A DNA stretch of 64,000 nucleotides from Cypionkella psychrotolerans (lineage in GTDB: Bacteria; Pseudomonadota; Alphaproteobacteria; Rhodobacterales; Rhodobacteraceae): contig NZ_LGIC01000066.1 in the NCBI RefSeq assembly GCF_001294535.1, positions 62,001 through 126,000 on the forward strand, written 5' to 3'. The number at the start of each line of letters is the position of its first letter. The stretch's first letter is position 1. A program made the translations under genes and the position numbers. Shown one piece after another: positions 4,254 to 63,790 of this stretch. The notes under the pieces were generated by a model. The model searched no databases and was not told the DNA's origin. It was given only the letters and a program-made list of their open reading frames with translations.

Positions 4254-4873
4254 CGACGCGGCCATTCGGTCTGGGTGTTTTCTTGCCAGCCCGTGCGGTG
4301 CAGCAGCGGGGTATCATCCATAAATTCGGGGTGACCGAGGCAAAGATAAGCGGCAAACTCCCAATCTTCGGGCACGCCCAGCAACTCCTCGATGTCATGC
4401 GGTTCCAAAATTGAAACCATGCCGAGGCCCAAATTCTCGGCCCGTGCCGCCAGCCACAACGTATGGATCGCCATCGCCGTCGATTGGCGCAGGGTTTCGG
4501 GCAGGGTTTGGCGGCCAAGACCATGCCCGGCCTCGGGGTGCATCACATTGAACACCGCCAGTTGCACCGGGGCCATCTCGAGCCCCGCCAGCTTTAGCGC
4601 CAGATATTCCGCATGCTTTTCGCCAGTGTAAAGCTTGGCGGCCTCAGCGTTGCAGCGGCTGAAATTGGCGCGCACGGCAGCGCGCAGGGCGAGATCATCG
4701 ACGCGTATCACCCGCCACGGCCGCGCATTGCCGACCGAGGGCGCACAATCCATCGTAGCGCGCAGCCGCTCCAGCACCGCCTCATCCACCGGATCGGGGC
4801 GGAAATGCCGCACGTCACGACGCCATTGCAGGATGCGCAACAGGGTGGCGGATTCGTCTGCGGTGAACTGCAT
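4250..4873 (-). CDS. bluB: 5,6-dimethylbenzimidazole synthase BluB
   Basis: 207 residues of the nitroreductase-like BluB family, which uses O2 to fragment reduced FMN into dimethylbenzimidazole, the lower ligand of B12. Family marks are [14 protein letters not shown] near the N-terminus, [11 protein letters not shown] for flavin binding, and [15 protein letters not shown]. The true start is ATG 4873 (MQFTADES), which overlaps the cobC stop by one base (TGATG). The 33 codons upstream belong to the cobC 3' end read in another frame. It is the last gene of a five-gene minus operon. Its product is activated by CobT, encoded divergently at 8782. Confidence 0.93.
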
Positions 4874-5832
4874 CAGGCCTCCAACGCGCGAGTCAGCCGC
4901 GCCCATTCGGCGGATGAGCCGGGAAGGCCGATCCGCAGCCATCGGTTCGAATAGGGAAAGATACGGCTCCAAATTTGCTGTTTTGCCAGCCGGATTTGTG
5001 CGGTTTCTGCATCCGGCGTCTCATAGCTGCGGAACAATTCGCAACCGCCGATCAGTTGCCAGCCTGCCGCCAATGCCAAAGCATCGGCCTGTACAACTTC
5101 AGACCGCAAGCGCTGCACCGTCGCCTCGGCCCAAGCCTTGTCTGCCAAGGCCGTAGCCCCGATCCGCAGCGCCGCACCGTTCACAGGCCACGGCCCGGAC
5201 ATTTCATGCAGCGCCGCAATATCCTCAGCGCAGCCAATCACGAAGCCCAACCGCACCCCAGCGAGCCCGTAGAACTTGCCGAAAGAGCGCAGCACCAGCA
5301 GACCCGACTGCCCGGCTTGCGGCAGCAACGACAGCTCTGGCTGTGCATCGGCGAAGCTTTCATCCACCACCAACCGCCCGACCTGCCCCGCCAAAGCCAG
5401 CAGGTCGGCGGGCGCGTAGGAACGGCCATCGGGGTTGTTGGGGTTCACCACCACCGCGAGGTCAGCCCCCGCCAACTGGCTGAACTGACTGACCTGTTCA
5501 ACCCTCCAGCCAGCGGCGCGCAAAGCGGCGGCATGTTCGTTATAGGTCGGCCCCAGCACGCGGGCCTTTCCCGGTTTCGCCAGCCGCGGGATCATCTGAA
5601 TCGCGGCTTGCGCGCCTGCCACCGCCAGCATCGGGGCGGTGCAGCGGTAGGTTTTGGCGGCCACGTCCAGCAGGGCTTGCTTGGCGGTTTGCGTGGGCAG
5701 CATCGTCCAATCTTCAGGCTGCAAAACCGGGATCGGATAGGCCACGCGGTTGATGCCGGTGGACAGATCAATCCAATCGGTGCCGCCAAAGCAGGCGATG
5801 GCCCCGTCAATATTTCCCCCGTGATCGCGCAT
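4873..5832 (-). CDS. cobC: Threonine-phosphate decarboxylase-like aminotransferase CobC (CobD type)
   Basis: 319-residue fold-type I PLP enzyme. It has ISTG-like DLSTGINRVAYPIP near the start, VVNPNNPDGR around 128-137, DESFAD at 158 and the PLP lysine K186 in LRSFGKFYGLAG. In this operon position it should make (R)-1-amino-2-propanol O-phosphate from threonine phosphate for attachment by CbiB. ATG 5832 has a GAGGGGGC ribosome site 4 bases upstream and lies 8 bases from the cbiB stop. It is somewhat shorter than Salmonella CobD (about 360), as usual for alphaproteobacterial CobC. Confidence 0.9.
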   Translation of the reverse strand: MRDHGGNIDGAIACFGGTDWIDLSTGINRVAYPIPVLQPEDWTMLPTQTAKQALLDVAAKTYRCTAPMLAVAGAQAAIQMIPRLAKPGKARVLGPTYNEHAAALRAAGWRVEQVSQFSQLAGADLAVVVNPNNPDGRSYAPADLLALAGQVGRLVVDESFADAQPELSLLPQAGQSGLLVLRSFGKFYGLAGVRLGFVIGCAEDIAALHEMSGPWPVNGAALRIGATALADKAWAEATVQRLRSEVVQADALALAAGWQLIGGCELFRSYETPDAETAQIRLAKQQIWSRIFPYSNRWLRIGLPGSSAEWARLTRALEA

Positions 5833-51672: not shown

Positions 51673-52188
51673 ATGCGGGGCGGGCAGAAAGAGCCGCTGT
51701 ATCGCCGCGTGAATACGCGGACGCATCATGTGGAGCATGGCGATCGCGGTGGCGAGGCGCGGTGGGAGCGCCATACCAAAGCCAGTATGAAAGATGAAAG
51801 GATGCGTGGCTCGATGCATCCGGGACATCGGCATGGGCTGGACTACACGCCGCTCTATCGGTTTTTGCTGTCACGGCTGGGGCGGGATTGGGATGAGGTG
51901 GTGTCCGAGGCCCTGCCCCGGATTGCAGACAGGGATGCACTTTATCATATGGTGGCGCGGCGCGTGGATGAGGAGCGCGACTTTGTGCGCTTAGGTGAAA
52001 ACAGCTATTGGAGCGGATTGCGGGTGAATGCGGCGAACCAGTTGGAAAGGGTCGCGCCGGATTTAACAGCCGAAGCGATTGAACCGTGGTGTACTTGCTG
52101 TACCCATACGCTCAATGGGGTGGCGATTGCCTTCAGCAAGGAACGGCTTGAGAAGGCTTGGAAATATGTGCCGGAGTCAGAGTGCTGA
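51673..52188 (+). CDS. Conserved-looking hypothetical protein with CTCC-H motif
   Basis: 171 residues, not recognised. The N-terminus is very rich in Arg, His and Met (TRTHHVEHGDRGGEARWERH, MHPGHRHG). The middle is helical (LYRFLLSRLGRDWDEVVSEAL), and near the end EPWCTCCTHTLNG holds three Cys and a His in close spacing, suggestive of zinc binding. It starts next to the GNAT stop (GTG 51670 or ATG 51673), so it is probably co-transcribed. It overlaps the convergent allA end by 12 bases. Codon usage looks like that of its neighbours, so it is likely real. Confidence 0.65.
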   Translation: MRGGQKEPLYRRVNTRTHHVEHGDRGGEARWERHTKASMKDERMRGSMHPGHRHGLDYTPLYRFLLSRLGRDWDEVVSEALPRIADRDALYHMVARRVDEERDFVRLGENSYWSGLRVNAANQLERVAPDLTAEAIEPWCTCCTHTLNGVAIAFSKERLEKAWKYVPESEC

Positions 52189-52665
52189 CACCACCCACGG
52201 CTGCGGGTAGCGGTATTCCTCAAGATTGGCGCTGGGGCCGATGCGGTCGATGACGGCGAACAGGCCAGGAGCGTGCAGTGGGGTGAGCACACCGTGCCAT
52301 GTGCTGCGGTGCAGGTTGATGGCTTGCGCGCCATTGGTGAGAAAGGCGCGGGGTTTGTCGGCTGGGCTGGTGGTGACGATGACGAGGAACGGGTTTTGCG
52401 TCATCGGGATGAAGGCTTGGCAGCCTTCGGGGTGACGCTCGATCAGATCGAAGCGGTAGGGAAGTTGGCGCGGGGTGGCGTTGAAAATCGAGAGGCCGGG
52501 GCGGTTTTGCGGGCTGACCTCGGGGGCGAAATCGAGGCGGGCGCGGTCGTGGTGGCGCTGGCACATGCCGTCGTTGATCAGGCGGAAATCGCCCGTCGCC
52601 TCCAGCACATCGCCGAATGGGGCGAAGGCTGCTGCGGTGAGGGGTTCGGGGCGGATATCGGACAT
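52177..52665 (-). CDS. allA: Ureidoglycolate lyase
   Basis: 162 residues of the AllA family: PEPLTAAAFAPFGDVLEA at the start, the family His in RHPEGCQAFIPM, and LHRSTWHGVLTPL. It splits ureidoglycolate to glyoxylate and urea, the last step of allantoin breakdown. It lies 106 bases downstream of the aminohydrolase gene on the same strand with a repeat element between. ATG 52665 is chosen over an ATG 8 codons earlier as the usual family start. Confidence 0.92.
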   Translation of the reverse strand: MSDIRPEPLTAAAFAPFGDVLEATGDFRLINDGMCQRHHDRARLDFAPEVSPQNRPGLSIFNATPRQLPYRFDLIERHPEGCQAFIPMTQNPFLVIVTTSPADKPRAFLTNGAQAINLHRSTWHGVLTPLHAPGLFAVIDRIGPSANLEEYRYPQPWVVSAL

Positions 52666-52689
52666 GGTGCGCCTTGGACTTCTGGACAA

Positions 52690-52754
52690 GCGAGGGGTTT
52701 CACACCCCTCGCGCTCCCCGTGGGATATTTGAGCACAGAGGATGACAATTTTAG
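52690..52754 (+). repeat. Composite repeat, copy between allA and ureidoglycine aminohydrolase
   Basis: A hairpin GCGAGGGGT-TTCAC-ACCCCTCGC (52690-52712) is followed by CTCCCCGTGGGATATTTGAG and CACAGAGGATGAC. Here the element is in the opposite orientation to the flanking genes, unlike the copies at 2559, 10555 and 29199. Confidence 0.75.
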
Positions 52755-52771
52755 CTAAGTTTTAGGCAGAT

Positions 52772-53614
52772 TTAGCGGTTTGGCCGATAGCCACCCGGCC
52801 CGCGCAGGTTGGCGTGGCGGTTGACGTCTTTGTAGAGCAGATAGCGGAAGCGGCCGGGGCCTGCGGCGTAGCAGGCTTGCGGGCAATAGGCGCGCAGCCA
52901 CATGAAATCGCCTGCCTCAACCTCGACCCAGTCTTGGTTGAGTTTGTAAACCGCTTTGCCTTCCAGCACATAGAGGCCATGTTCCATGACATGGGTTTCT
53001 TCAAACGGGATCACGCCTCCGGGTTGGAAGGTGACGATATTGACATGGGCATCGTAGCGCACATCATTGGGATCGACGAAGCGGGTGGTGCCCCAGACGC
53101 CATTGGTGTCGGGCATCAGGCTGAGGTTCACGTCTTTTTCGTTGATCACGAAGGCGGGGGGGATATCGACGCCGGGGGCGGGCTCGTAAAGTTTGCGAAT
53201 CCAGTGAAAGCGGGCGGGTTGCTTGCCTTCGGCGAGCAGGCGCCATGTCGCACCCGGCGGGATGAAGGCATAGCCGCCTGCGTCCAACTCGTAGCCCATG
53301 CCGTCGATGGTCAGGGTGATCAGGCCGCCGGTGACGAACAGGAAATGTTCCGCGCCAGTTTCCGCATCGGGCGCGTCAGAGCCGCCGCCCGGTTGCACCT
53401 CCATCACATATTGGCTGAAGGTTTCGGAAAAGCCTGACATCGGCCGCGCGATCAGCCAGAGTTTGGTCTGCCGCCAACCGGGGAGGCAACTGGTCAGAAT
53501 GTCGGAAAAGCAACCTTTCGGGATAAAGGCATAGGCGTTGGTGAAGACCGCGCGGCCCGTCATTAGGGTGGTTTGGGCGGGCAGACCACCGGGGGGGGTG
53601 TAATATTGGCTCAT
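52772..53614 (-). CDS. allE: (S)-ureidoglycine aminohydrolase (bicupin)
   Basis: 280 residues forming two cupin domains. The second has the Mn-binding set FEETHVMEHGLYVLEGKAVYKLNQDW, and QYVMEVQPGGGSD and EHFLFVTGGLITLTIDG belong to the first. It releases ammonia from ureidoglycine to give ureidoglycolate for AllA, in the cytoplasm. Its start overlaps the stop of the PuuE-UraD fusion gene by 4 bases (ATGA), which fixes its place in the ureide operon. Confidence 0.9.
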   Translation of the reverse strand: MSQYYTPPGGLPAQTTLMTGRAVFTNAYAFIPKGCFSDILTSCLPGWRQTKLWLIARPMSGFSETFSQYVMEVQPGGGSDAPDAETGAEHFLFVTGGLITLTIDGMGYELDAGGYAFIPPGATWRLLAEGKQPARFHWIRKLYEPAPGVDIPPAFVINEKDVNLSLMPDTNGVWGTTRFVDPNDVRYDAHVNIVTFQPGGVIPFEETHVMEHGLYVLEGKAVYKLNQDWVEVEAGDFMWLRAYCPQACYAAGPGRFRYLLYKDVNRHANLRGPGGYRPNR

Positions 53615-55026
53615 GGCAGTTGATCCTTCAGGCGCAGTGCGGCGATGCGTTCGACTTGTTTGCAGGCAGTTTGCAGTTCGATCTCGGTCGGGTTGGCGAT
53701 GCGGGACTCGAAGGCTTGCAGGATTTGCGCCTTGGTGTTGTCGCGCACGGCGATGATGAAGGGGAAGCCATGTTTGGCTGTGTATTGGGTGTTCAGGGCT
53801 TGAAATTGGGCGCGTTCAGCGGCGGTGAGGGCATCCAGCGCGGCGGAGGCTTGCTCAGAGGTCGAGTCGGCGGTGAGTTGTTTGGCGGCGGCGAGTTTTC
53901 CGGCAAGGTCGGGGTGGGCTTGCAGCACGCCGAGGCGTTCGGCGGGACTGGCCGTGCGGAAGATGCGCGCGAGGACGCTGTGCAGGCCTGTGGCGCTATC
54001 ATGGGCGGGGCCGAGTTCCAGATCGAAGGCGCGGTCGGCAATCCAGGGTGAATGTTCGAAAATGCTCCCATAGGCGGCGATGAAGCGCTCACGTGTCATC
54101 TGAGAAGGCCGCTCGAAGCGCTTGTGCGGATGGGCCTTTGCCCAATGTTCGGCGATTTCGATGCGGCGGGGGAACCACACGTGATTGTGGGATTTTGCAT
54201 AGTCGAGGAAGCGCTTGAGCCCTGCGATTTTGCCCGGACGCCCGATCAGGCGGCAGTGCAGGCCAATGGAGAACATCTTCGCTTTGCCCTCTTGGCCCTC
54301 GGCATAGAGGGTATCAAAACTGTCTTTCAAGTATTGGAAGAACTGCTGGCCTTCGATGTAGCCCGGTGCTGTCGCAAAGCGCATGTCGTTGGCTTCCAGC
54401 GTGTAGGGGATCACCAACTGGTCGCGCTCGCCCACCTCGCGCCAATACGGCAGATCGTCGTCATAGGTGTCCGAGATCCAGTCGAATTGACCGGTCTCGG
54501 CGGTCAGATCCACGGTGTTCAGCGAACAGCGGCCCGTGTACCAGCCGCGCGGGGGATCCCCGACGACTTCAGTGTGCAGGCGGATCGACTCGGCGATTTG
54601 GCGGCGTTCTTCCTCGATAGGCATATCGCGGTGATCGACCCATTTCAGGCCGTGGCTGGCAATCTCCCAGCCTGCGGATTTCATCGCGGCGACTTGTTCG
54701 GGGTTGCGGGCAAGCGCGGTCGAGACGCCGTAGATCGTCACCGGAATATCCATGCCGGTGAACAGCCGGTGCAGCCGCCAGAAGCCCGCGCGTGCGCCGT
54801 AATCGTAGATCGATTCCATGTTCCAGTGGCGCTGACCGGGCCAGGGGGCTGCCCCTGCGATGTCAGACAAAAACGCCTCGCACTGGCCATCGCCGTGCAG
54901 GATGTTGTTCTCGCCGCCTTCTTCGTAGTTCAGCACCAGAGATATCGCGATTTTGGCACCACCCGGCCAAGCGGCATCGGGGGCATCGGGGCCATGGCCT
55001 CGGAAATCGCGGGGGTAGCGGGGCAT
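53611..55026 (-). CDS. Fusion of PuuE-type allantoinase and OHCU decarboxylase (UraD)
   Basis: 471 residues. Positions about 1-300 form a polysaccharide-deacetylase-fold allantoinase of the PuuE type (MPRYPRDFRGHGPDAPDAAW, WNMESIYDYGARAGFWRL, FSIGLHCRLIGRPGK). About 310-471 form OHCU decarboxylase (MTRERFIAAYGSIFEHSPWIA, LGVLQAHPDLAGKLAA, FPFIIAVRDNTKAQIL). The order of domains reverses the pathway order: UraD makes S-allantoin, PuuE opens it to allantoate. Fusions of this kind occur in alphaproteobacteria. It heads a three-gene minus operon, divergent from uraH. Confidence 0.93.
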   Translation of the reverse strand: MPRYPRDFRGHGPDAPDAAWPGGAKIAISLVLNYEEGGENNILHGDGQCEAFLSDIAGAAPWPGQRHWNMESIYDYGARAGFWRLHRLFTGMDIPVTIYGVSTALARNPEQVAAMKSAGWEIASHGLKWVDHRDMPIEEERRQIAESIRLHTEVVGDPPRGWYTGRCSLNTVDLTAETGQFDWISDTYDDDLPYWREVGERDQLVIPYTLEANDMRFATAPGYIEGQQFFQYLKDSFDTLYAEGQEGKAKMFSIGLHCRLIGRPGKIAGLKRFLDYAKSHNHVWFPRRIEIAEHWAKAHPHKRFERPSQMTRERFIAAYGSIFEHSPWIADRAFDLELGPAHDSATGLHSVLARIFRTASPAERLGVLQAHPDLAGKLAAAKQLTADSTSEQASAALDALTAAERAQFQALNTQYTAKHGFPFIIAVRDNTKAQILQAFESRIANPTEIELQTACKQVERIAALRLKDQLP

Positions 55027-55162
55027 GGGGGACTCCTTTTGTTTCAGACTATATCGAATATCGACGCGGGTTTATCAAATAATCCCGAAAGGAGTTTTGC
55101 GGCTTGGCAGGGGGTGCGGGGGCGAGCAAGCTGGGGTAGGCTGGCGCAAAATGGGGGCGAAG

Positions 55163-55516
55163 ATGGGCAAGTTGACCACGCATGTGCTGGATACGGCGAA
55201 GGGCAAGCCTGCGCATGGGGTGAAGATCATGCTGTATCGGATCAGCGGGATGAGCCACAAGAAAATCGCTGAAACCGTGACCAATGCCGATGGCCGCACC
55301 GATGCGCCGATGTTGGAGGGTAAGGCGCTGACGGCGGGGGTTTATGAGCTGGTGTTTTGCGCCGGAGAATATCTGATGGCCTCGGGACAAGCCTCGGGTG
55401 AGGTGCTGTTTTTGGACGAAATCCCGATCCGGTTTGGCGTGGCGGATGCAGAGGGGCATTACCATGTGCCGTTGTTGATCTCGCCCTTCGCCTATTCGAC
55501 CTATCGCGGCAGTTAA
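55163..55516 (+). CDS. uraH: 5-hydroxyisourate hydrolase (transthyretin-like)
   Basis: 117 residues, MGKLTTHVLDTAKGKPAHGV, with the family's active-site His7, Arg/His residues in EGHYHVPLLISPFAYSTY and the invariant C-terminal YRGS. It hydrolyses 5-hydroxyisourate to OHCU, the substrate of the UraD domain encoded divergently 136 bases away. ATG 55163 matches the conserved N-terminus; an ATG four codons earlier is possible. Confidence 0.94.
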   Translation: MGKLTTHVLDTAKGKPAHGVKIMLYRISGMSHKKIAETVTNADGRTDAPMLEGKALTAGVYELVFCAGEYLMASGQASGEVLFLDEIPIRFGVADAEGHYHVPLLISPFAYSTYRGS

Positions 55517-55621: not shown

Positions 55622-56863
55622 ATGCAAAGCAGCGATGACATTGCCAGAATGTTGGCCGGGGGTGGGGCCAAGCGGCGGCGCTGGCCTTGGGTCGTGTTGG
55701 TGCTGGCGGTTTTGGCTGCGGCGGCGGCGTGGTATTATATCGGCCGCAGCGCCGGGACGGCGGAGGTGCGCTATACGACCGAAGCCGTCGCCAAGGGCGA
55801 TCTGGTGGTGGTGGTGACAGCCACCGGGACAGTGCAGCCGACCACGGAAGTTGAGGTGTCCTCGGAACTGTCGGGGACTTTGACCAGCGTTTTGGTGGAT
55901 TACAACGATACGGTGAAAGTCGGCCAAGTGCTGGCGCAGTTGGATACCACCAAGCTGACCGCACAAGTCGATAATGCGCGCGCACAACTGGCCTCGGCGA
56001 AGGCCAAGGTGACGCAAGCCGAAGCCTCGGCACGGGAAGCGGCGGCGGTGCTGAAAACCCAGCAGGAGTTGGCGGCGCGCGGGGTGGCGACACGCAAGGA
56101 TATGGTGGGCTACGAGGCCTCGGATCAACGCGCGCAGGCGGCGGTCGAGATTGCGCGGGCGGATTTGACTTTGGCCGAGGCCAATCTCGATCTGGTCAGC
56201 GCCGATCTGGGCAAGGCGCAGATACGCAGCCCGATCAATGGCGTGGTGTTGGATCGCACCGCCGAAGCGGGGCAGATCGTGGCGGCAAGCTTTGAGGCGC
56301 CGGTTTTGTTCAAGCTGGCGGAGGATCTGCAGCGGATGCAGTTGTTGGTCGATATTGACGAGGCCGATATTGGCAAGGTCAAGGTCGGCGATGTGGCGGA
56401 TTTCACCGTAGAGGCCTATCCGGCCCGCAGTTTTCCGGCGGTGATCACCCAAGTGCGGTTTGCCCCGGAAACCACCAATGAGGTGGTGACCTATAAGGCG
56501 GTGTTGTCAGTGGATAATCCCGATGGGCTGCTGCGCCCCGGCATGACGGCGACAGCGGTGATCACGGTGGACAAGGTCGCGAATGCGCTGCTGGTGCCGA
56601 ATGCGGCGTTGCGCTATGCGCCGCCCGTGCAAGAGGCTGGGCGTGGATCGTCTGGTGGTCTGGTCGGGCTGATCCTGCCCACGCGCGGCAGTCGTGGTTC
56701 TGCGGGCCTTGGCAGTGGCAAGTCGATCTGGCTGTTGCAGGCGGGGGTGCCTGCTGAGGTCGCGGTGGTGTTGGGGGCGACGGACGGGCGCTCTACTGTC
56801 GTGACGGGTGAACTGACCGAGGGCGATGCGGTGATCACCGACCAGACTTCCGGGGCGCGCTGA
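55622..56863 (+). CDS. MacA-like periplasmic adaptor (membrane fusion protein)
   Basis: 413 residues. One N-terminal transmembrane helix (about 22-39, WPWVVLVLAVLAAAAAWYY), a biotinyl-lipoyl half (VVTATGTVQPTTEVEVSSEL), an Ala/Lys/Glu-rich hairpin of coiled coil (about 110-190), then beta-barrel and membrane-proximal domains. A Gly/Ser-rich insert (GRGSSGGLVGLILPTRGSRG) sits near 340-365. It links an inner-membrane ABC transporter to an outer-membrane factor, absent here. It overlaps the ATPase gene by one base. Confidence 0.92.
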   Translation: MQSSDDIARMLAGGGAKRRRWPWVVLVLAVLAAAAAWYYIGRSAGTAEVRYTTEAVAKGDLVVVVTATGTVQPTTEVEVSSELSGTLTSVLVDYNDTVKVGQVLAQLDTTKLTAQVDNARAQLASAKAKVTQAEASAREAAAVLKTQQELAARGVATRKDMVGYEASDQRAQAAVEIARADLTLAEANLDLVSADLGKAQIRSPINGVVLDRTAEAGQIVAASFEAPVLFKLAEDLQRMQLLVDIDEADIGKVKVGDVADFTVEAYPARSFPAVITQVRFAPETTNEVVTYKAVLSVDNPDGLLRPGMTATAVITVDKVANALLVPNAALRYAPPVQEAGRGSSGGLVGLILPTRGSRGSAGLGSGKSIWLLQAGVPAEVAVVLGATDGRSTVVTGELTEGDAVITDQTSGAR

Positions 56864-57570
56864 TGCCGCCGTTGATCCAGTTTGCTGGCGTATCCCGCAC
56901 CTATGGCCGGGGTGAGGCAGAAGTGCGGGCGCTGGATGGGGTGGACCTTAGCATCGAACGCGGAGAATTCGTCGCCATCATGGGGCCGTCGGGGTCTGGA
57001 AAATCCACCGCGATGAATATCATCGGCTGTCTGGATCGGCCCTCGGCGGGGAAATATCTGTTTCAGGGCGTCGAGGTGCAGGATCTGGACCAAGACCGCC
57101 GGGCGCTCTTGCGCAGGCATTGTCTGGGCTTTGTGTTTCAGGGCTTTAACCTGCTTGCCCGGCAATCGGCATTAGAAAATGTCGAATTGCCCTTGATCTA
57201 TAGGGGCTTGCCGAAGGCCGAGCGTGTTGCCCGCGCGCGGTTGGCCTTGCACAAGGTTGGGCTGGAGGGCCGCGAGGGCCATGATCCGTCGCAGCTCTCG
57301 GGCGGCCAACAGCAGCGGGTGGCGATTGCGCGGGCGCTTGCCAGTGATCCAATGGTGATCTTGGCGGATGAACCTACGGGCAACCTCGACAGCCAACGCA
57401 GCCATGAGATCATGCAGCTGTTGCAAGCCTTGAACCGCGACGGCATCACCATTGTGATGGTGACGCATGAGAACGACATCGCCGCTTACGCCCAACGTTT
57501 GCTCGTGTTCACCGATGGCAAGCTGACCCGCGATGAGGCCACCCCTGCCCTGATCTCGCGGAGCGCTTAG
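56863..57570 (+). CDS. MacB-type ABC transporter ATPase
   Basis: 235 residues with Walker A GPSGSGKST at 41-49, Q-loop FVFQGFNLLARQSALENVELP, signature LSGGQQQRV and Walker B VILADEPTGNLD, the pattern of the LolD/MacB group. It powers the permease encoded 1 base downstream by mechanotransmission across the membrane. The ATPase and permease are separate proteins here, unlike E. coli MacB. Confidence 0.95.
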   Translation: MPPLIQFAGVSRTYGRGEAEVRALDGVDLSIERGEFVAIMGPSGSGKSTAMNIIGCLDRPSAGKYLFQGVEVQDLDQDRRALLRRHCLGFVFQGFNLLARQSALENVELPLIYRGLPKAERVARARLALHKVGLEGREGHDPSQLSGGQQQRVAIARALASDPMVILADEPTGNLDSQRSHEIMQLLQALNRDGITIVMVTHENDIAAYAQRLLVFTDGKLTRDEATPALISRSA

Positions 57571-57571
57571 G

Positions 57572-58780
57572 ATGTTGTGGGAAACGGTCAGCCTCGCCTT
57601 CACCACCATCATCCGCAACAAGCTGCGGACGTTTCTGACCGTGTTGGGCGTGGTGATTGGCGTCGCTGCGGTGATCGCGATGGTGACGATCGGGCAAGGC
57701 AGTTCGGCGCAGGTCAGCGCCAGCGTGGCTGCCCTCGGCACCAACGTGCTGACCGTGCGCCCCGGCACCCGCGGCTTTGGTCCGCCGACCGGAGGTGCCA
57801 CGGCCCCCAGGTTTAGCCTGAAAGATGCCGAGGCTTTGGCGGATTTGTCGCTGGTGGGCTATGCCGCCCCGGTGGTCAGTTCCGGGCAAACCGTGGTGTT
57901 CGGCAATGCCAATGCGGCGACGCAGGTCTATGGCACCAGTGGCGATTACACCCGCGTGCAGAATTGGGCGCTGCGGACGGGGCGCAGTTTTGAGCCGCAT
58001 GAGGAAAGTGCCGGATCGGCGGTTTGCGTTCTGGGCCAAACGGTTGCGACAAAGTTGTTCGGCAATTCTGACCCGGTCGGCCAAAGTATAAGGGTGAAAA
58101 ACGTCGCCTGTCAGGTACTGGGGGTGCTGAGCGCGCGCGGCTCGGGCAGTTTTGGGCAGGATCAGGATGATCTGGTGTTGATGCCCGCGAAAGCAGTGCA
58201 GCGGCGGCTGGAGGGCAATGCCAATGTCGACAGCATCGCGGTGGCCTTGCGCAAATCAGTCAGCGCGGAAGATGGTATCGCGGCGGTGCAAGCCGTGCTG
58301 CGCGAGCGTCGGCGGATTGGGCTGACGCAGCCGGATAATTTCAGCGTCTCCGACAGCAAAGAGCTGTCGAATATGCTCGGCGGCATCAATACCGTGCTGA
58401 CCGGGCTGCTCTCGTCAGTGGCGGCGGTCAGCCTGTTGGTCGGCGGTATCGGCATCATGAATATCATGCTGGTCTCGGTCACCGAACGCACGCGCGAGAT
58501 TGGCATAAGGCTGGCGGTGGGGGCGAGTGCCAGGCAGGTTTTGCTGCAGTTTCTGGTCGAAGCGGTGGTGCTGTCGTTGCTCGGCGGTGCGATTGGCATC
58601 GGCTTGGGGTTGGCGATTGCCTATGGCGGCTCGGTGTTCATGGCGATCCCGTTTGTGCCCTCGGGTGCGGTGGTGGCACTGGCCTTCGGGTTTTCGGCAC
58701 TGATCGGGGTGGTGTTTGGCTATTTCCCGGCCCGCCGCGCCGCAAGGCTCGATCCGATTGAGGCGTTGCGCTATCAATAG
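57572..58780 (+). CDS. MacB-type ABC transporter permease
   Basis: 402 residues: TM1 with the family motif NKLRTFLTVLGVVIGVAAVIAM at about 16-37, a large periplasmic MacB_PCD domain (about 45-275), then three C-terminal helices with GGIGIMNIMLVSVTERTREIGIRLAVGA and the end ARLDPIEALRYQ. With the adaptor and ATPase it forms a tripartite exporter of a peptide, lipid or siderophore; the cargo is unknown. Confidence 0.94.
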   Translation: MLWETVSLAFTTIIRNKLRTFLTVLGVVIGVAAVIAMVTIGQGSSAQVSASVAALGTNVLTVRPGTRGFGPPTGGATAPRFSLKDAEALADLSLVGYAAPVVSSGQTVVFGNANAATQVYGTSGDYTRVQNWALRTGRSFEPHEESAGSAVCVLGQTVATKLFGNSDPVGQSIRVKNVACQVLGVLSARGSGSFGQDQDDLVLMPAKAVQRRLEGNANVDSIAVALRKSVSAEDGIAAVQAVLRERRRIGLTQPDNFSVSDSKELSNMLGGINTVLTGLLSSVAAVSLLVGGIGIMNIMLVSVTERTREIGIRLAVGASARQVLLQFLVEAVVLSLLGGAIGIGLGLAIAYGGSVFMAIPFVPSGAVVALAFGFSALIGVVFGYFPARRAARLDPIEALRYQ

Positions 58781-60418: not shown

Positions 60419-60432
60419 GCAAAGTACTTTGC
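60419..60432. promoter_or_regulatory. Operator O1: perfect palindrome GCAAAGTACTTTGC
   Basis: A 14-base perfect palindrome ending 29 bases before the ATG of the first gene of the 60462-63790 module. Thirteen of its 14 bases recur at 61451-61464 before the dehydratase-like gene. A winged-helix regulator gene lies between them, so this is most simply its operator. Confidence 0.7.
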
Positions 60433-60461
60433 AACGAAAAGTGTACGTGCTAGGAAGCGGT

Positions 60462-61058
60462 ATGACCGAGATCAACCGCGCCCTTGCTGACTTAGCCCTG
60501 ATCCGCAACCAGATTGCGGGCGCGCGGCTGTTTCGCGGCTTTGGGCCAACGGTGGTGGCTGGAACTGGGGTTTTAGCGCTGATCGCGGCGATGTGGCAAA
60601 ATCAACAGGGTGTGCAGGCGGCGGCGGAGTATTTCACGCTGTGGCTTGGAGTTGCAGTGCTGTCACTGGCGCTGATCGGGACGGAAATGTGGGCTTTGTC
60701 CAAGCGTCACCATGGCGGGCTGGCGGGTCCGTTCGTCTGGGGCATGGCGGAAGCCTTCCTGCCAGCCGGTCTTGCCGGGGCCAGCATCGCCGCTGTGCTC
60801 TATCGGTTCGTGCCCGAGGCGATGGGACTGCTACCCGGATTGTGGCAGATTCTGATCGCGCTTGGCCTGTTCAGCGCGGGTGCGCGACTGCCCGCCAGCC
60901 TGCGGATTGCAGGGGCGTGGTATTTTCTGGCCGGGCTTGCGTCGCTGATTTTGGCCAGCACTGGCGGGCTATCGCCGTGGTTGATGGGGCTGCCGTTTGG
61001 TCTGGGGCAACTGCTGGTGGCGCTGTGCCTGTATCTCGCGGGGCGCAATCATGGTTAA
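60462..61058 (+). CDS. Polytopic membrane protein of unknown function, module gene 1
   Basis: 198 residues with about six hydrophobic helices (around 40-58, 70-90, 102-125, 132-150, 155-175, 178-195). A short cytoplasmic-type N-terminus, MTEINRALADLALIRNQIAGARLFRGFGP, precedes them. I do not recognise a family. AGGA precedes ATG 60462. It overlaps the winged-helix gene by 8 bases, the arrangement seen for membrane sensors or transporters with a dedicated regulator. It lies directly behind operator O1. Confidence 0.75.
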   Translation: MTEINRALADLALIRNQIAGARLFRGFGPTVVAGTGVLALIAAMWQNQQGVQAAAEYFTLWLGVAVLSLALIGTEMWALSKRHHGGLAGPFVWGMAEAFLPAGLAGASIAAVLYRFVPEAMGLLPGLWQILIALGLFSAGARLPASLRIAGAWYFLAGLASLILASTGGLSPWLMGLPFGLGQLLVALCLYLAGRNHG

Positions 61059-61422
61059 ACCCACCGCCCGATATGCCTATGACGGGCTGGACCGGGTGAT
61101 GCACGAAAAAGCGCGGTTAAGTTTGCTGACCGCGCTGATCACCCATCCGAAAGGGCTGTCGTTCACCGAGTTGAAGCAACATTGCGGCCTCACCGATGGA
61201 AATTTAAGCCGCCATATGAAGGTGTTGCAGGAAAGCGGGCTGGTGGCGGTGGTCAAGGGCTATGAAGACAACCGGCCCCATACGGCGGTGACGATCACCT
61301 CCAGCGGACAGCAGCAGTTTCTCGATTACCTCAGCGTGCTGGAGCAGGTGCTGCGCGATGCGGCCCCCTTGGCCGCCAGTTTGCCCGCCACATTTCCCGA
61401 TGCCGAACCGGATTTGGCCTGA
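61051..61422 (+). CDS. Winged-helix transcriptional regulator, module gene 2
   Basis: 123 residues. The fold is ARLSLLTALITHPKGLSFTELKQHCGLTDGNLSRHMKVLQESGLVAVVKGYE, a MarR/ArsR-like winged helix (residues about 17-68), followed by a wing (RPHTAVTITSSGQQQFLDYL) and a C-terminal dimer helix. No Cys or His metal site is visible, so it probably senses an organic ligand or a protein partner. It is likely autoregulatory: palindromes O1 and O2 flank the gene pair. Confidence 0.88.
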   Translation: MVKPTARYAYDGLDRVMHEKARLSLLTALITHPKGLSFTELKQHCGLTDGNLSRHMKVLQESGLVAVVKGYEDNRPHTAVTITSSGQQQFLDYLSVLEQVLRDAAPLAASLPATFPDAEPDLA

Positions 61423-61440
61423 GCTTTTATTTGTGGAGCA

Positions 61441-61464
61441 ACTTTGCAATGCAAAGTAGTTTGC
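61441..61464. promoter_or_regulatory. Operator O2: overlapping palindromes at the dehydratase-like start codon
   Basis: ACTTTGCAATGCAAAGT (61441-61457) is a perfect palindrome centred on A61449, the first base of the ATG. It overlaps GCAAAGTAGTTTGC (61451-61464), which matches O1 in 13 of 14 bases. So three half-sites of GCAAAGT type cover the ribosome site and start codon. A bound regulator here would act as a roadblock or mask an internal promoter. Confidence 0.65.
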
Positions 61465-63293
61465 TAAACGCGGAGCCCTTGCTGTTCCCCAAATTGAGCC
61501 ATCTACGTGGCCCGCAAACCCGCAGGCTGTTGCGGCGCTTTGCGGGGGTCTATGCCACATTGTTCGGCGCGGCTGTGGCGTTGCTGCTGTTGGCACCTGC
61601 GACTTGGGCAGGCTTTGCGCTGGGGCTGATGGCACCGGGGGCAGGGTTTATCGCAGGTTGGGCGATGCTGGCGAGTGCTGCGCTGTTCGGTATGGCCCTG
61701 CTGATCTGGTTTGCGACGGGCAATCTGCTGCTACCGCCGATAGTTTGGCTGGGCGCGGCGTGGCTTGCGGCGGAAAACACTCCCTCTCCGACGCAAAAAT
61801 TGACCGCCCCCACCCTGATTATACTGGGTTTTGCAGCGATCTGGCTCTGGCAGCGCCGCGCCCTGCGCCGCGCACAGAACCATCGCGCCCGGCTTAACCT
61901 TCATCTCGCCAACTGTCCCGCCCTGCCTATACCTGCCCCGTCTGCCGACGAGTTGTCTCCCGCCGATCTTGCCCGCCTGCGTCTGCTCTTGGACCGCGCC
62001 TTGCAGCCCGCCGATCAATTCAACGGCTTTGAGCATCGCGACCCGTTTCAGACCGCAGCCTTGCGCTATCAGGTGAATTTTGTCGCCTTCGCACTGGCGC
62101 TGGTGCAGGCGCACTATGCTCCGGCCTGTAAGGGCTATCTGCATCAGGCGCAGGATAACCTACTGATCAAGATACAGAATCCGAAAGTCTGGTGCTATTG
62201 GGCATGGGAAAACCTCTGGGGTAATCTGCGCCATGACCCCGATCCGATTGCCAGCGGCAACATCATGTATGCGGGCTTTGTCGCCGCCCAAATCGCCCTG
62301 CGCGCCAATGCCTGCGGCTATCCGTTTGATGCGACACAGGTGCAGATCAGCGGCGGGCAAAGCTTCACCTACAGCCAGCCGCAGATCATCGAGACCCTGA
62401 CGCGGCAGTACGAAACCTCTCGCCTTGGCCTGCTGCCGTGTGAGCCGCATTGGGTCTACCCCCTGTGCAATCTGATCACTGCCGCGGCTATCCGCGCCCA
62501 TTCCAACCGCCACAGGACTGACCATTGGCTGCGGATTTCTGGGCCGCTGCGGGCCGGGCTGGAGGCTGAGTTTATCGGGGCCAAAGGCGATCTGGTGGCG
62601 TTCCGCTCCAGCCTGACCGGGATTGCGGCTCCGGCGGTGGGCGGGGCGCTGATGCAGGGCTATCCGTGCGTTTACCTGCACGCCATCGCCCCCGATATGG
62701 CGCAGCGGCAGTGGCAGAGCCTGCGGTATGCGCTGCGTGGACGCGGGTGGCGGCACGCGATTTGGCGGCTGGATGTCGGCAATTATGGCCTGTCGCGGGC
62801 GGCGGGTTATACCGGGTTGGCGCTGGCAGCGCGCGAGATCGGCGATGAGGCGGCGGCGGGCGATCTGCTGGCGCTGCTGGAGGCGGATTGCCCCGAAGTG
62901 ATCGCCTCCGGGGTGGCGCATCGCGAAAGCGCCTCACTTTGGGCCTTAGCGCATGAGGTGATGGCGCGGGCGCATCGGACGGGCGGCTTGGCTGCGCTGA
63001 TGCAGCCGCAGGTGGTCGCGGGGCCGTATATCGAAGCGGTGGATTATGCCGAGACCTTGGTAGCGAAAGCGCGCAATACCGCAGGCGGGCTAGAGATGGT
63101 GCTGTATCCGCGCCAGCCGGGTCAGGTACAAAGCCTTGCTTTTGCAGGGTTACAGCCGCATCAAGCCTATCTGCTGCGCGGTGATATCGGCGGTAAACTG
63201 ATCGCGGATGCGCAAGGCAAAGCCTCCCTGCACCTGACCCTCACCCCGCACAGCGCCTTTACTCTGCTGACAGAGAAAGCGTCAAACCGATGA
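61449..63293 (+). CDS. Membrane-anchored linalool dehydratase/isomerase-like protein, module gene 3
   Basis: 614 residues. Residues about 30-140 form four or five transmembrane helices; a cytoplasmic or periplasmic (alpha/alpha) domain follows. That domain matches what I recall of linalool dehydratase-isomerase: Asp198 in FEHRDPFQTAALRYQVNF, WCYWAWENLWGN, GNIMYAGFVAAQIAL, and LPCEPHWVYPLCN with Cys331 and Cys340. The nine-residue Cys spacing and Asp-to-Cys distance (133) fit Asp39, Cys171 and Cys180 of the Castellaniella enzyme. The equivalent of its His129 is unclear and may be Phe. ATG 61449 has GGAG 10 bases upstream; a TTG 18 bases earlier is possible. It overlaps the DgkA-like gene by ATGA. 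Confidence 0.75.
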   Translation: MQSSLLNAEPLLFPKLSHLRGPQTRRLLRRFAGVYATLFGAAVALLLLAPATWAGFALGLMAPGAGFIAGWAMLASAALFGMALLIWFATGNLLLPPIVWLGAAWLAAENTPSPTQKLTAPTLIILGFAAIWLWQRRALRRAQNHRARLNLHLANCPALPIPAPSADELSPADLARLRLLLDRALQPADQFNGFEHRDPFQTAALRYQVNFVAFALALVQAHYAPACKGYLHQAQDNLLIKIQNPKVWCYWAWENLWGNLRHDPDPIASGNIMYAGFVAAQIALRANACGYPFDATQVQISGGQSFTYSQPQIIETLTRQYETSRLGLLPCEPHWVYPLCNLITAAAIRAHSNRHRTDHWLRISGPLRAGLEAEFIGAKGDLVAFRSSLTGIAAPAVGGALMQGYPCVYLHAIAPDMAQRQWQSLRYALRGRGWRHAIWRLDVGNYGLSRAAGYTGLALAAREIGDEAAAGDLLALLEADCPEVIASGVAHRESASLWALAHEVMARAHRTGGLAALMQPQVVAGPYIEAVDYAETLVAKARNTAGGLEMVLYPRQPGQVQSLAFAGLQPHQAYLLRGDIGGKLIADAQGKASLHLTLTPHSAFTLLTEKASNR

Positions 63294-63790
63294 TCTGCTG
63301 TACCCTGTTCATCGCCCTGCTCGGCCTCATCGGCACCGCTTTGCATAAACTCGGCTTGCGCCCCGCCTCACCCTTGGCATGGCGCCCCGAAGCCGCCGCC
63401 CCCGTACGCTTCTCATGGACCGCCCGCGCCCGCAGCTTCCGCTACGCTGGCCGTGGCCTCGCCACCGCCCTGCGCGAGGAACATAACGCCCGCCTGCATC
63501 TGGCGGCCGCCGTGTTGATGACAGCGCTGGGTCTGGGCTTGCACTTCACTGCCGCCGAATGGGCGCGGACCCTGTTTGCCGTGGCCTTGGTGTTCATCGC
63601 CGAACTCTTGAACACCGCGCTTGAGCATCTCTGCGATGTGATCTCGCCCGCAGAAAACCCCACAATCGGCAAGGCCAAAGACGTGGCCGCCGCGGCCGTG
63701 CTGATCGCCGCCCTGACTGCCTGTGCGGTGCTGGCGACGATCCTGCTGCCACGGCTGTTGCCTGCCGCAAATGCGATCTGCGGCGGCTGA
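63290..63790 (+). CDS. DgkA-family diacylglycerol/undecaprenol kinase-like membrane protein, module gene 4
   Basis: 166 residues. The core (about 44-155) has ARSFRYAGRGLATALREEHNARLH and AELLNTALEHLCDVISP. The spacing of Glu105, Asn108, Glu112 and Asp116 equals that of E69, N72, E76 and D80 in E. coli DgkA, and KAKDVAAAAVLI gives Lys130-Asp131. The enzyme should phosphorylate a lipid alcohol at the membrane. A 40-residue hydrophobic N-terminal extension, MICCTLFIALLGLIGTALHK, is unusual. Start overlap with the dehydratase-like gene implies coupled translation and a shared or sequential substrate. Confidence 0.85.
   Translation: MICCTLFIALLGLIGTALHKLGLRPASPLAWRPEAAAPVRFSWTARARSFRYAGRGLATALREEHNARLHLAAAVLMTALGLGLHFTAAEWARTLFAVALVFIAELLNTALEHLCDVISPAENPTIGKAKDVAAAAVLIAALTACAVLATILLPRLLPAANAICGG

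Follow-up and report, generated by a model that had tools for sequence, protein, structure and literature searches.

A conserved pairing of a membrane-anchored Ldi-like enzyme with a DgkA-family kinase in Proteobacteria, with a possible role in prenol lipid salvage

Introduction

Enzymes of the linalool dehydratase/isomerase (Ldi) family have been described in the breakdown of monoterpenes, and prenol kinases in the cell-wall metabolism of Gram-positive bacteria. Here, we describe a cassette which pairs an Ldi-like enzyme with a kinase of the DgkA family. It is located on the + strand at positions 60419-63790 of a 64,000-nucleotide stretch of the Cypionkella psychrotolerans genome (the whole stretch being referred to as the window), and consists of four genes and two operator-like palindromes, O1 and O2, all of which were found where a preliminary description of this DNA had placed them.

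In Thauera linaloolentis 47Lol, the linalool isomerase Lis is reported to be an inner membrane protein of 644 amino acids, which has four helices predicted at the N terminus and an Ldi domain in the cytosol, interconverts geraniol and linalool, requires a reductant and favours the direction from geraniol to linalool; Lis and Ldi are described as differing in dehydratase activity (PMC4791888). The chemistry of Ldi is reported to be reversible (PMC6013536). As to the kinases, DgkA of Bacillus subtilis is reported to be an undecaprenol kinase (PMC5723303), and the substrates given for UdpK of Streptococcus mutans are geraniol, farnesol, geranylgeraniol, phytol and dolichol (PMC12560707), phytol also being named in a further report (PMC12796225). 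The catalytic residues of Escherichia coli DgkA are given as Glu69, Asn72, Glu76, Lys94 and Asp95 (PMC4703834).

A conserved enzyme-kinase partnership

Relatives of the window enzyme were collected by a protein search of plasmids (12 records) and by a profile scan of genome contigs, the patterns of which were made from four sequences (two with and two without a kinase) and which yielded 143 relatives. Of these 143, the 80 most similar to the window enzyme were kept, a choice that favours the window's own clade; together with L009-L011 and the window itself, they make up the 84 loci which, with one outgroup, were placed in an enzyme tree by a quick method. The gene caller overlooked the Ldi gene in several loci, and the counts given here rest on stop-to-stop frames.

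In this tree, 45 loci form a clade (Shimodaira-Hasegawa-like approximate likelihood ratio test, SH-aLRT, 100), and a DgkA-family gene is present in 44 of them, as compared to none of the 39 loci outside (0/37 if only informative loci are counted, as L071 and L090 end at or just past the enzyme gene). Kinase and enzyme are encoded on the same strand in all 44 cases, and the distance from the enzyme stop to the matched kinase stretch ranges from -33 to +189 bases in 41 of them, with 402 bases in L054 and the longest distances, 637 and 794 bases, in L041 and L034. The sole kinase-less member of the clade, L055, retains the gene of the MxCC microprotein introduced below and the first kinase codons before it diverges from its near-copy L049, which suggests that the kinase was lost recently or that the assembly is broken there. 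In their best segment, the clade enzymes share 35-44% identity with that of the window, and by record titles their hosts are Alpha-, Beta- and Gammaproteobacteria, joined by single bins labelled Chloroflexota and Bdellovibrionota, labels which may err. The preliminary description had envisaged a module of enzyme, kinase and regulator, and this survey bears it out, with the kinase in 44/45 and the regulator pair in at least 14/45 clade loci.

In Aureimonas sp. AU20, the gene order is membrane protein, winged helix-turn-helix (wHTH) regulator, UppS, Ldi-like enzyme and DgkA-family kinase. The flanks vary by genome: the 20 clade-locus neighbours scanned against Pfam include ribonucleotide reductase, UbiA, ribosomal protein L1, radical S-adenosylmethionine (SAM), LysR, two-component, DUF4153, ApbE, PadR and TsaD genes, among others, and the module thus moves as one unit. 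The Ldi family was matched in 2/394 genomes of the host's family and 3/398 of a phylum sample, and a 61-row profile in 3/385 genomes of a class sample, the window genome itself and some weak, partial matches being part of each count; in 14 other genomes of the same genus, no match to the window enzyme was found. This patchy spread suggests horizontal transfer. The window genome (5.08 Mb) holds a single Ldi match and three DgkA-family matches. Among the titles and abstract beginnings listed in searches of the open-licence PubMed Central literature, no description of the module was found, nor, within that literature, a paper in which "linalool dehydratase" and "diacylglycerol kinase" occur together.

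The features of the cassette in the window are as follows.

60462..61058, + strand: polytopic membrane protein of 198 amino acids, proposed as sensor or partner of the regulator
61051..61422, + strand: winged-helix regulator of 123 amino acids, HTH_34 (PF13601)
61449..63293, + strand: membrane-anchored Ldi-family protein of 614 amino acids, assigned by Pfam, PDB profile and predicted model
63290..63790, + strand: DgkA-family kinase of undecaprenol-kinase-like type, 166 amino acids, DAGK_prokar at residues 51-152
63290..63388, + strand: MxCC microprotein segment fused to the kinase N terminus, residues 1-33, from MICC to PLAWRP
62439..62468, + strand: catalytic-cysteine motif CEPxxxxxxCN, Cys331 and Cys340 aligned to Ldi Cys171 and Cys180
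60426..60442, + strand: candidate operator O1, ACTTTGCAACGAAAAGT, 15/17 to the consensus ACTTTGCAATGCAAAGT
60419-60432: perfect palindrome GCAAAGTACTTTGC, overlapping O1
61441..61457, + strand: candidate operator O2, ACTTTGCAATGCAAAGT, 17/17, its central ATG being the start of the next gene (MQS)

As previously described, the membrane-protein and wHTH genes overlap by 8 bases and the Ldi-like and DgkA genes by ATGA. Two features go beyond that account, namely the MxCC fusion on the kinase and the position of the Ldi-like start codon within O2.

The Ldi-like enzyme

The window enzyme matches the Pfam family Ldi with 208.5 bits (cut-off 26.1; E-value 2.2e-61) over residues 206-496, and its profile matches Ldi in the PDB at 1e-23. 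Its predicted model (predicted local distance difference test, pLDDT, 94.5) contains helices in residues 22-155, an (alpha,alpha)6 barrel in 162-523 and an extra beta domain in 527-608, and the barrel matches the fold of solved Ldi in a structural comparison. The likeness to Ldi first noticed in the C-terminal domain thus holds at the level of family, profile and fold. With N-terminal membrane helices followed by an Ldi domain, the protein has the architecture of Lis, and its Ldi domain would be cytosolic.

Both catalytic cysteines are present in 84/84 loci. The active site of Ldi is formed at the subunit interface of a pentamer. Asp39 and Tyr45 of Ldi (D38 and Y44 in PMC12455561) fall beyond the stretch covered by the profile alignment. 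At the position of Ldi His129, Phe is found in 45/45 clade rows and Trp in the Thauera protein, which makes the histidine apparently dispensable for isomerase activity. Because the clade and the Thauera protein both lack this histidine, and because the difference between Lis and Ldi is dehydratase activity, isomerisation is probably a likelier shared reaction than dehydration.

The kinase

The window kinase matches DAGK_prokar with 106 bits (cut-off 22.3), in agreement with its earlier assignment to the DgkA family. Its catalytic residues are Glu105, Asn108, Glu112, Lys130 and Asp131, and E, N, E, K and D are invariant in 33 aligned operon kinases (of 44). A split in the kinase tree (97/95) has the rows of E. 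coli, Methylophaga and Methylobacterium, together with the two further kinases of the host, on one side, and the operon kinases with those of Acetoanaerobium, Paenibacillus and Collinsella on the other, the Paenibacillus and Collinsella kinases being encoded between ybeY and era. In this tree, the window kinase falls outside the E. coli-type diacylglycerol kinase branch and, as judged from sequence, the operon kinases group with undecaprenol-kinase types, apart from the E. coli type.

The MxCC microprotein

A segment that starts with MxCC, usually continues with a hydrophobic stretch and ends like PLxWRP or AQxWRL directly follows the enzyme gene in 43/45 clade loci (42 in a tighter scan, which missed L054), L034 and L041 being the exceptions. 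In some loci, it forms a separate open reading frame of about 40 codons, and in others the N-terminal part of the kinase; most relatives have the separate form, and the window has the fused one. It follows the Ldi gene in L009, L028, L029, L036, L037, L039 and L040, among others. In close pairs, codon changes by position are 8/4/16 and 6/3/16 (two Massilia pairs) and 11/12/17 (L045/L049, the least clear), silent and replacing changes among the changed codons being about equally frequent. Third codon positions vary most, as would be expected of a translated gene under moderate constraint. One guess would be that the microprotein acts as a redox partner of the catalytic cysteines. The family is without a description in the open-licence PubMed Central papers searched. 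Outside the kinase clade, longer proteins that start with MxCC are encoded behind the Ldi-like gene in L011 (9852-10244; no Pfam match) and L050 (after 9935).

The regulatory pair, its operators and UppS

Small repressors encoded together with a membrane protein are exemplified by SdpR-SdpI, a pair of autorepressor and membrane protein. The regulator of the cassette matches HTH_34 with 67 bits (cut-off 27) and is 59% identical to its Aureimonas copy over 100 amino acids. The membrane protein, 41% identical to the Aureimonas copy (12 copies aligned), matches no Pfam or NCBIfam family, and its predicted all-helical structure gave no clear structural match. The pair is found upstream in 14/45 clade loci, a lower bound, as the sequence stops shortly before the enzyme gene in several contigs of the clade.

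The 16-base pattern of O2, with up to three mismatches allowed, has four matches in the window (O1 and O2, each on both strands) as compared to 0.57 expected; four matches were reached in 1/100 shuffles. The case for the operators rests far more on positional conservation than on these shuffle statistics: O1 and O2 occur at the same two places in all 14 pair-bearing loci and in three further pair loci without Ldi nearby. Scores against the consensus are 14-17 of 17 except in three loci, namely L009 (O1 12/17, equal to a chance match elsewhere in the locus), L060 (O1 13) and L038 (13 at both). In 11/14 loci, the exceptions being L047, L048 and L051, the ATG inside O2 starts the next gene, so that UppS or the Ldi-like protein begins with MQS. 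Among 70 control loci (1.0 Mb; 31 in the kinase clade), scores of at least 14 occur only in L035, L042, L052 and L063; these four belong to the kinase clade, and the matches lie at or shortly ahead of the enzyme gene start, with L035 and L052 reading MQS. The wHTH protein presumably binds O1 and O2.

Among 289 class genomes, the membrane protein occurs in five: that of the window, G914, which has the cassette, and G457, G1019 and G989. In the latter three, the pair and both operators are found with a UppS gene starting inside O2, and the 14-kb stretch around the pair contains no Ldi-like or kinase gene; the pair and operator thus accompany prenol-lipid genes more widely. The loci L121, L122 and L123, with the pair, two operators and a second UppS, and with neither an Ldi-like enzyme nor a kinase encoded nearby, have the appearance of a wider regulon around UppS. 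The Aureimonas UppS aligns with solved undecaprenyl diphosphate synthases (1.9e-47). Among 14 hand-picked genomes, two UppS genes were counted in all seven that have a UppS of the operon type (the cassette being present in four and absent from three), and a single one in 7/7 lacking it.

Proposed function and alternatives

We consider, with a probability of about 0.5, that the cassette is an inducible system which handles, at the inner membrane, alcohols of isoprenoid and most likely polyprenyl type and serves the salvage or repair of prenol carriers. The wHTH protein at O1 and O2 would keep the cassette switched off until its membrane partner signals a state of a membrane prenol lipid. The Ldi-like protein would then interconvert the tertiary (linalool-type) and primary (geraniol/nerol-type) forms of an allylic prenol by moving its hydroxyl group, as in Lis and without dehydration, and the kinase would use ATP to trap the primary prenol as polyprenyl phosphate, thereby pulling the unfavourable isomerisation. 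As the favoured direction is towards the tertiary alcohol, a kinase that withdraws the primary one at the expense of ATP could explain why the two genes have remained paired. In genomes with a UppS paralogue, the latter may supply new polyprenyl diphosphate in the same response, and the net outcome would be a salvaged or repaired prenol lipid carrier. The suggestion of the preliminary description that the pair handles an isoprenoid or other lipid alcohol in the membrane gains support from these comparisons.

Several observations weigh against salvage. The window enzyme has Phe277 at the position of Ldi His129 (the residue called H128 in PMC12455561), as well as His334 where 44/45 clade members have Asn (62448) and Leu500 where 44/45 have His (62946). 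The substrates known so far for the Ldi family are small, and yields of LinD are reported to climb up to C13 and to drop at C16 (PMC12455561). UppS lies within the cassette in 7/45 clade loci and is absent from that of the window, the genome of which has only one UppS, located elsewhere. The kinase tree is small (42 rows), carries long-branch warnings and leaves exact placement unsure, and one Parabacteroides kinase sits inside the operon group. The MxCC protein has no explained place in the scheme and occurs in 8/39 outside loci, all without a kinase (six labelled Nevskiaceae, five in short form). Gram-negative bacteria are reported to be without free undecaprenol (PMC5723303). Sequence and predicted structure show the fold, the catalytic cysteines, the conserved gene unit, the kinase grouping and the operators, and from these the prenol substrate, the isomerase reaction, the direction of flow, the repression by the wHTH protein and the sensing by the membrane protein are inferred. 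Finally, B12-binding radical-SAM genes beside the module may mean modification instead of salvage.

This last point leads to the possibility that a polyprenyl or isoprenoid lipid is altered (isomerised, hydrated or perhaps methylated) and then activated by phosphorylation to serve as a specialised membrane lipid or glycan carrier, a scheme which the reversibility of Ldi chemistry would allow (PMC6013536). Related B12-binding radical-SAM genes, the products of which could, at a guess, be lipid methylases, lie beside the module in L035 (8770-10314), L042 (2299-2804), L054 (203-532) and L058 (6445-7983), the frames in L042 and L054 being partial, and beside the operon-type UppS in L121 (6081-7622). 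DUF4153 occurs in L026, L027, L072 and L123, and in L043 a UbiA-family prenyltransferase gene (4766-5740) lies two genes upstream of the Ldi-like gene. However, radical-SAM genes accompany only 4/44 and DUF4153 only 3/44 of the kinase-bearing loci, and no glycosyltransferase was recognised among the 20 Pfam-scanned neighbours, which makes this explanation doubtful. At the position matching the UbiA gene of L043, L091 has a gene of equal length.

The cassette might instead serve the catabolism or detoxification of terpene alcohols, with Lis-like uptake of exogenous monoterpenols such as linalool and a kinase that phosphorylates geraniol or nerol for the cell's own isoprenoids. Lis, the characterised relative, is reported to carry out this chemistry on C10 alcohols, and UdpK of S. 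mutans to accept geraniol, but the Thauera protein lies outside the kinase clade, a second UppS would be better suited to a long-chain lipid, and no terpene-degradation family was recognised in the 20 Pfam-scanned neighbours, whereas the kinase-less L010 is surrounded by alcohol and aldehyde dehydrogenases and a P450. We therefore regard this role as unlikely. That the kinase is an ordinary diacylglycerol kinase, sharing an operon with an unrelated Ldi-like enzyme only for co-regulation under envelope stress, is conceivable in so far as the lipid substrates of the DgkA family differ and sequence gives no certain specificity. Yet the two genes are adjacent in 44/45 loci, the enzymes of which share 35-44% identity with that of the window, and the operon kinases form a group separate from E. 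coli DgkA and from the two paralogues of the host, so that the host already has two kinases of the diacylglycerol type; we thus consider this very improbable.

Returning to prenol carrier salvage, a more specific version, which we put forward as speculative and rather unlikely, is that polyprenyl diphosphates or phosphates lose their head group through an allylic rearrangement, and that the dead-end tertiary prenols so formed are turned into primary prenols by the Ldi-like enzyme and re-phosphorylated by the kinase to usable carrier, with the process sensed at the membrane, a spare UppS switched on in some genomes, and the MxCC protein keeping the cysteines reduced or tying the enzyme to the kinase. 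If true, many Proteobacteria would hold and salvage free polyprenols, which are reported to be absent from Gram-negative bacteria. The old and near-invariant pairing, which spans Alpha-, Beta- and Gammaproteobacteria, indicates that a branch of isoprenoid-lipid metabolism has so far gone unrecognised, and the question whether free polyprenols are made, lost and recycled in Gram-negative bacteria is made testable. The analysis further yields a new enzyme clade, more likely of isomerases than of dehydratases, a microprotein family, and an operator that can be searched for in order to map the regulon.

Neighbouring genes in the window

Just upstream of the cassette, at 55622-58780, three genes resemble by eye a MacAB-type exporter (adaptor, ATPase and permease). 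The open reading frames at 52177-55516, which we take by eye to be genes of purine or ureide breakdown, presumably encode a ureidoglycolate lyase, a cupin, a polysaccharide deacetylase-like protein with a decarboxylase part, and a hydroxyisourate hydrolase.

Comparison with known systems

Lis shares with the window enzyme the N-terminal helices and Ldi domain, a similar length, both cysteines and an aromatic residue in place of His129. It differs in being 31% identical (L102), in lying outside the kinase clade and in its role in monoterpene degradation; in L102, the locus of a Thauera linaloolentis strain and presumably that of the Lis gene, no kinase, MxCC protein or regulator pair was found. 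Ldi (LinD) of Castellaniella defragrans, 20% identical to the window enzyme over the structural alignment, is reported to be exported to the periplasm and, unlike the window enzyme, has His129, and the solved chains are without the N-terminal helices and C-terminal beta domain of the latter. SdpR-SdpI resembles the regulatory pair in that a small wHTH protein is encoded with a polytopic membrane protein; the only link is a weak match of the regulator to NCBIfam SdpR (17.9 bits, cut-off 100), and none to SdpI was found by sequence or structure.

The undecaprenol kinases UdpK of S. mutans and DgkA of B. subtilis share with the operon kinase the DgkA family, a motif of the [EQ]xNxx[IL]H type and the E/N/E/K/D residues. 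Unlike these, the cassette kinase is preceded by an MxCC segment or carries one as a fusion, and unlike the two kinases of the ybeY-era loci (Paenibacillus and Collinsella), which have no annotated Ldi partner, it is paired with an Ldi-like enzyme. E. coli DgkA belongs to the same family and has the same catalytic residues, but falls on the opposite branch (97/95). The preliminary description knew of no described system of this make-up. Ldi domains with membrane helices are already represented by Lis, whereas the conserved partnership of the Ldi-like enzyme with a DgkA-family kinase is, on the comparisons made here, new.

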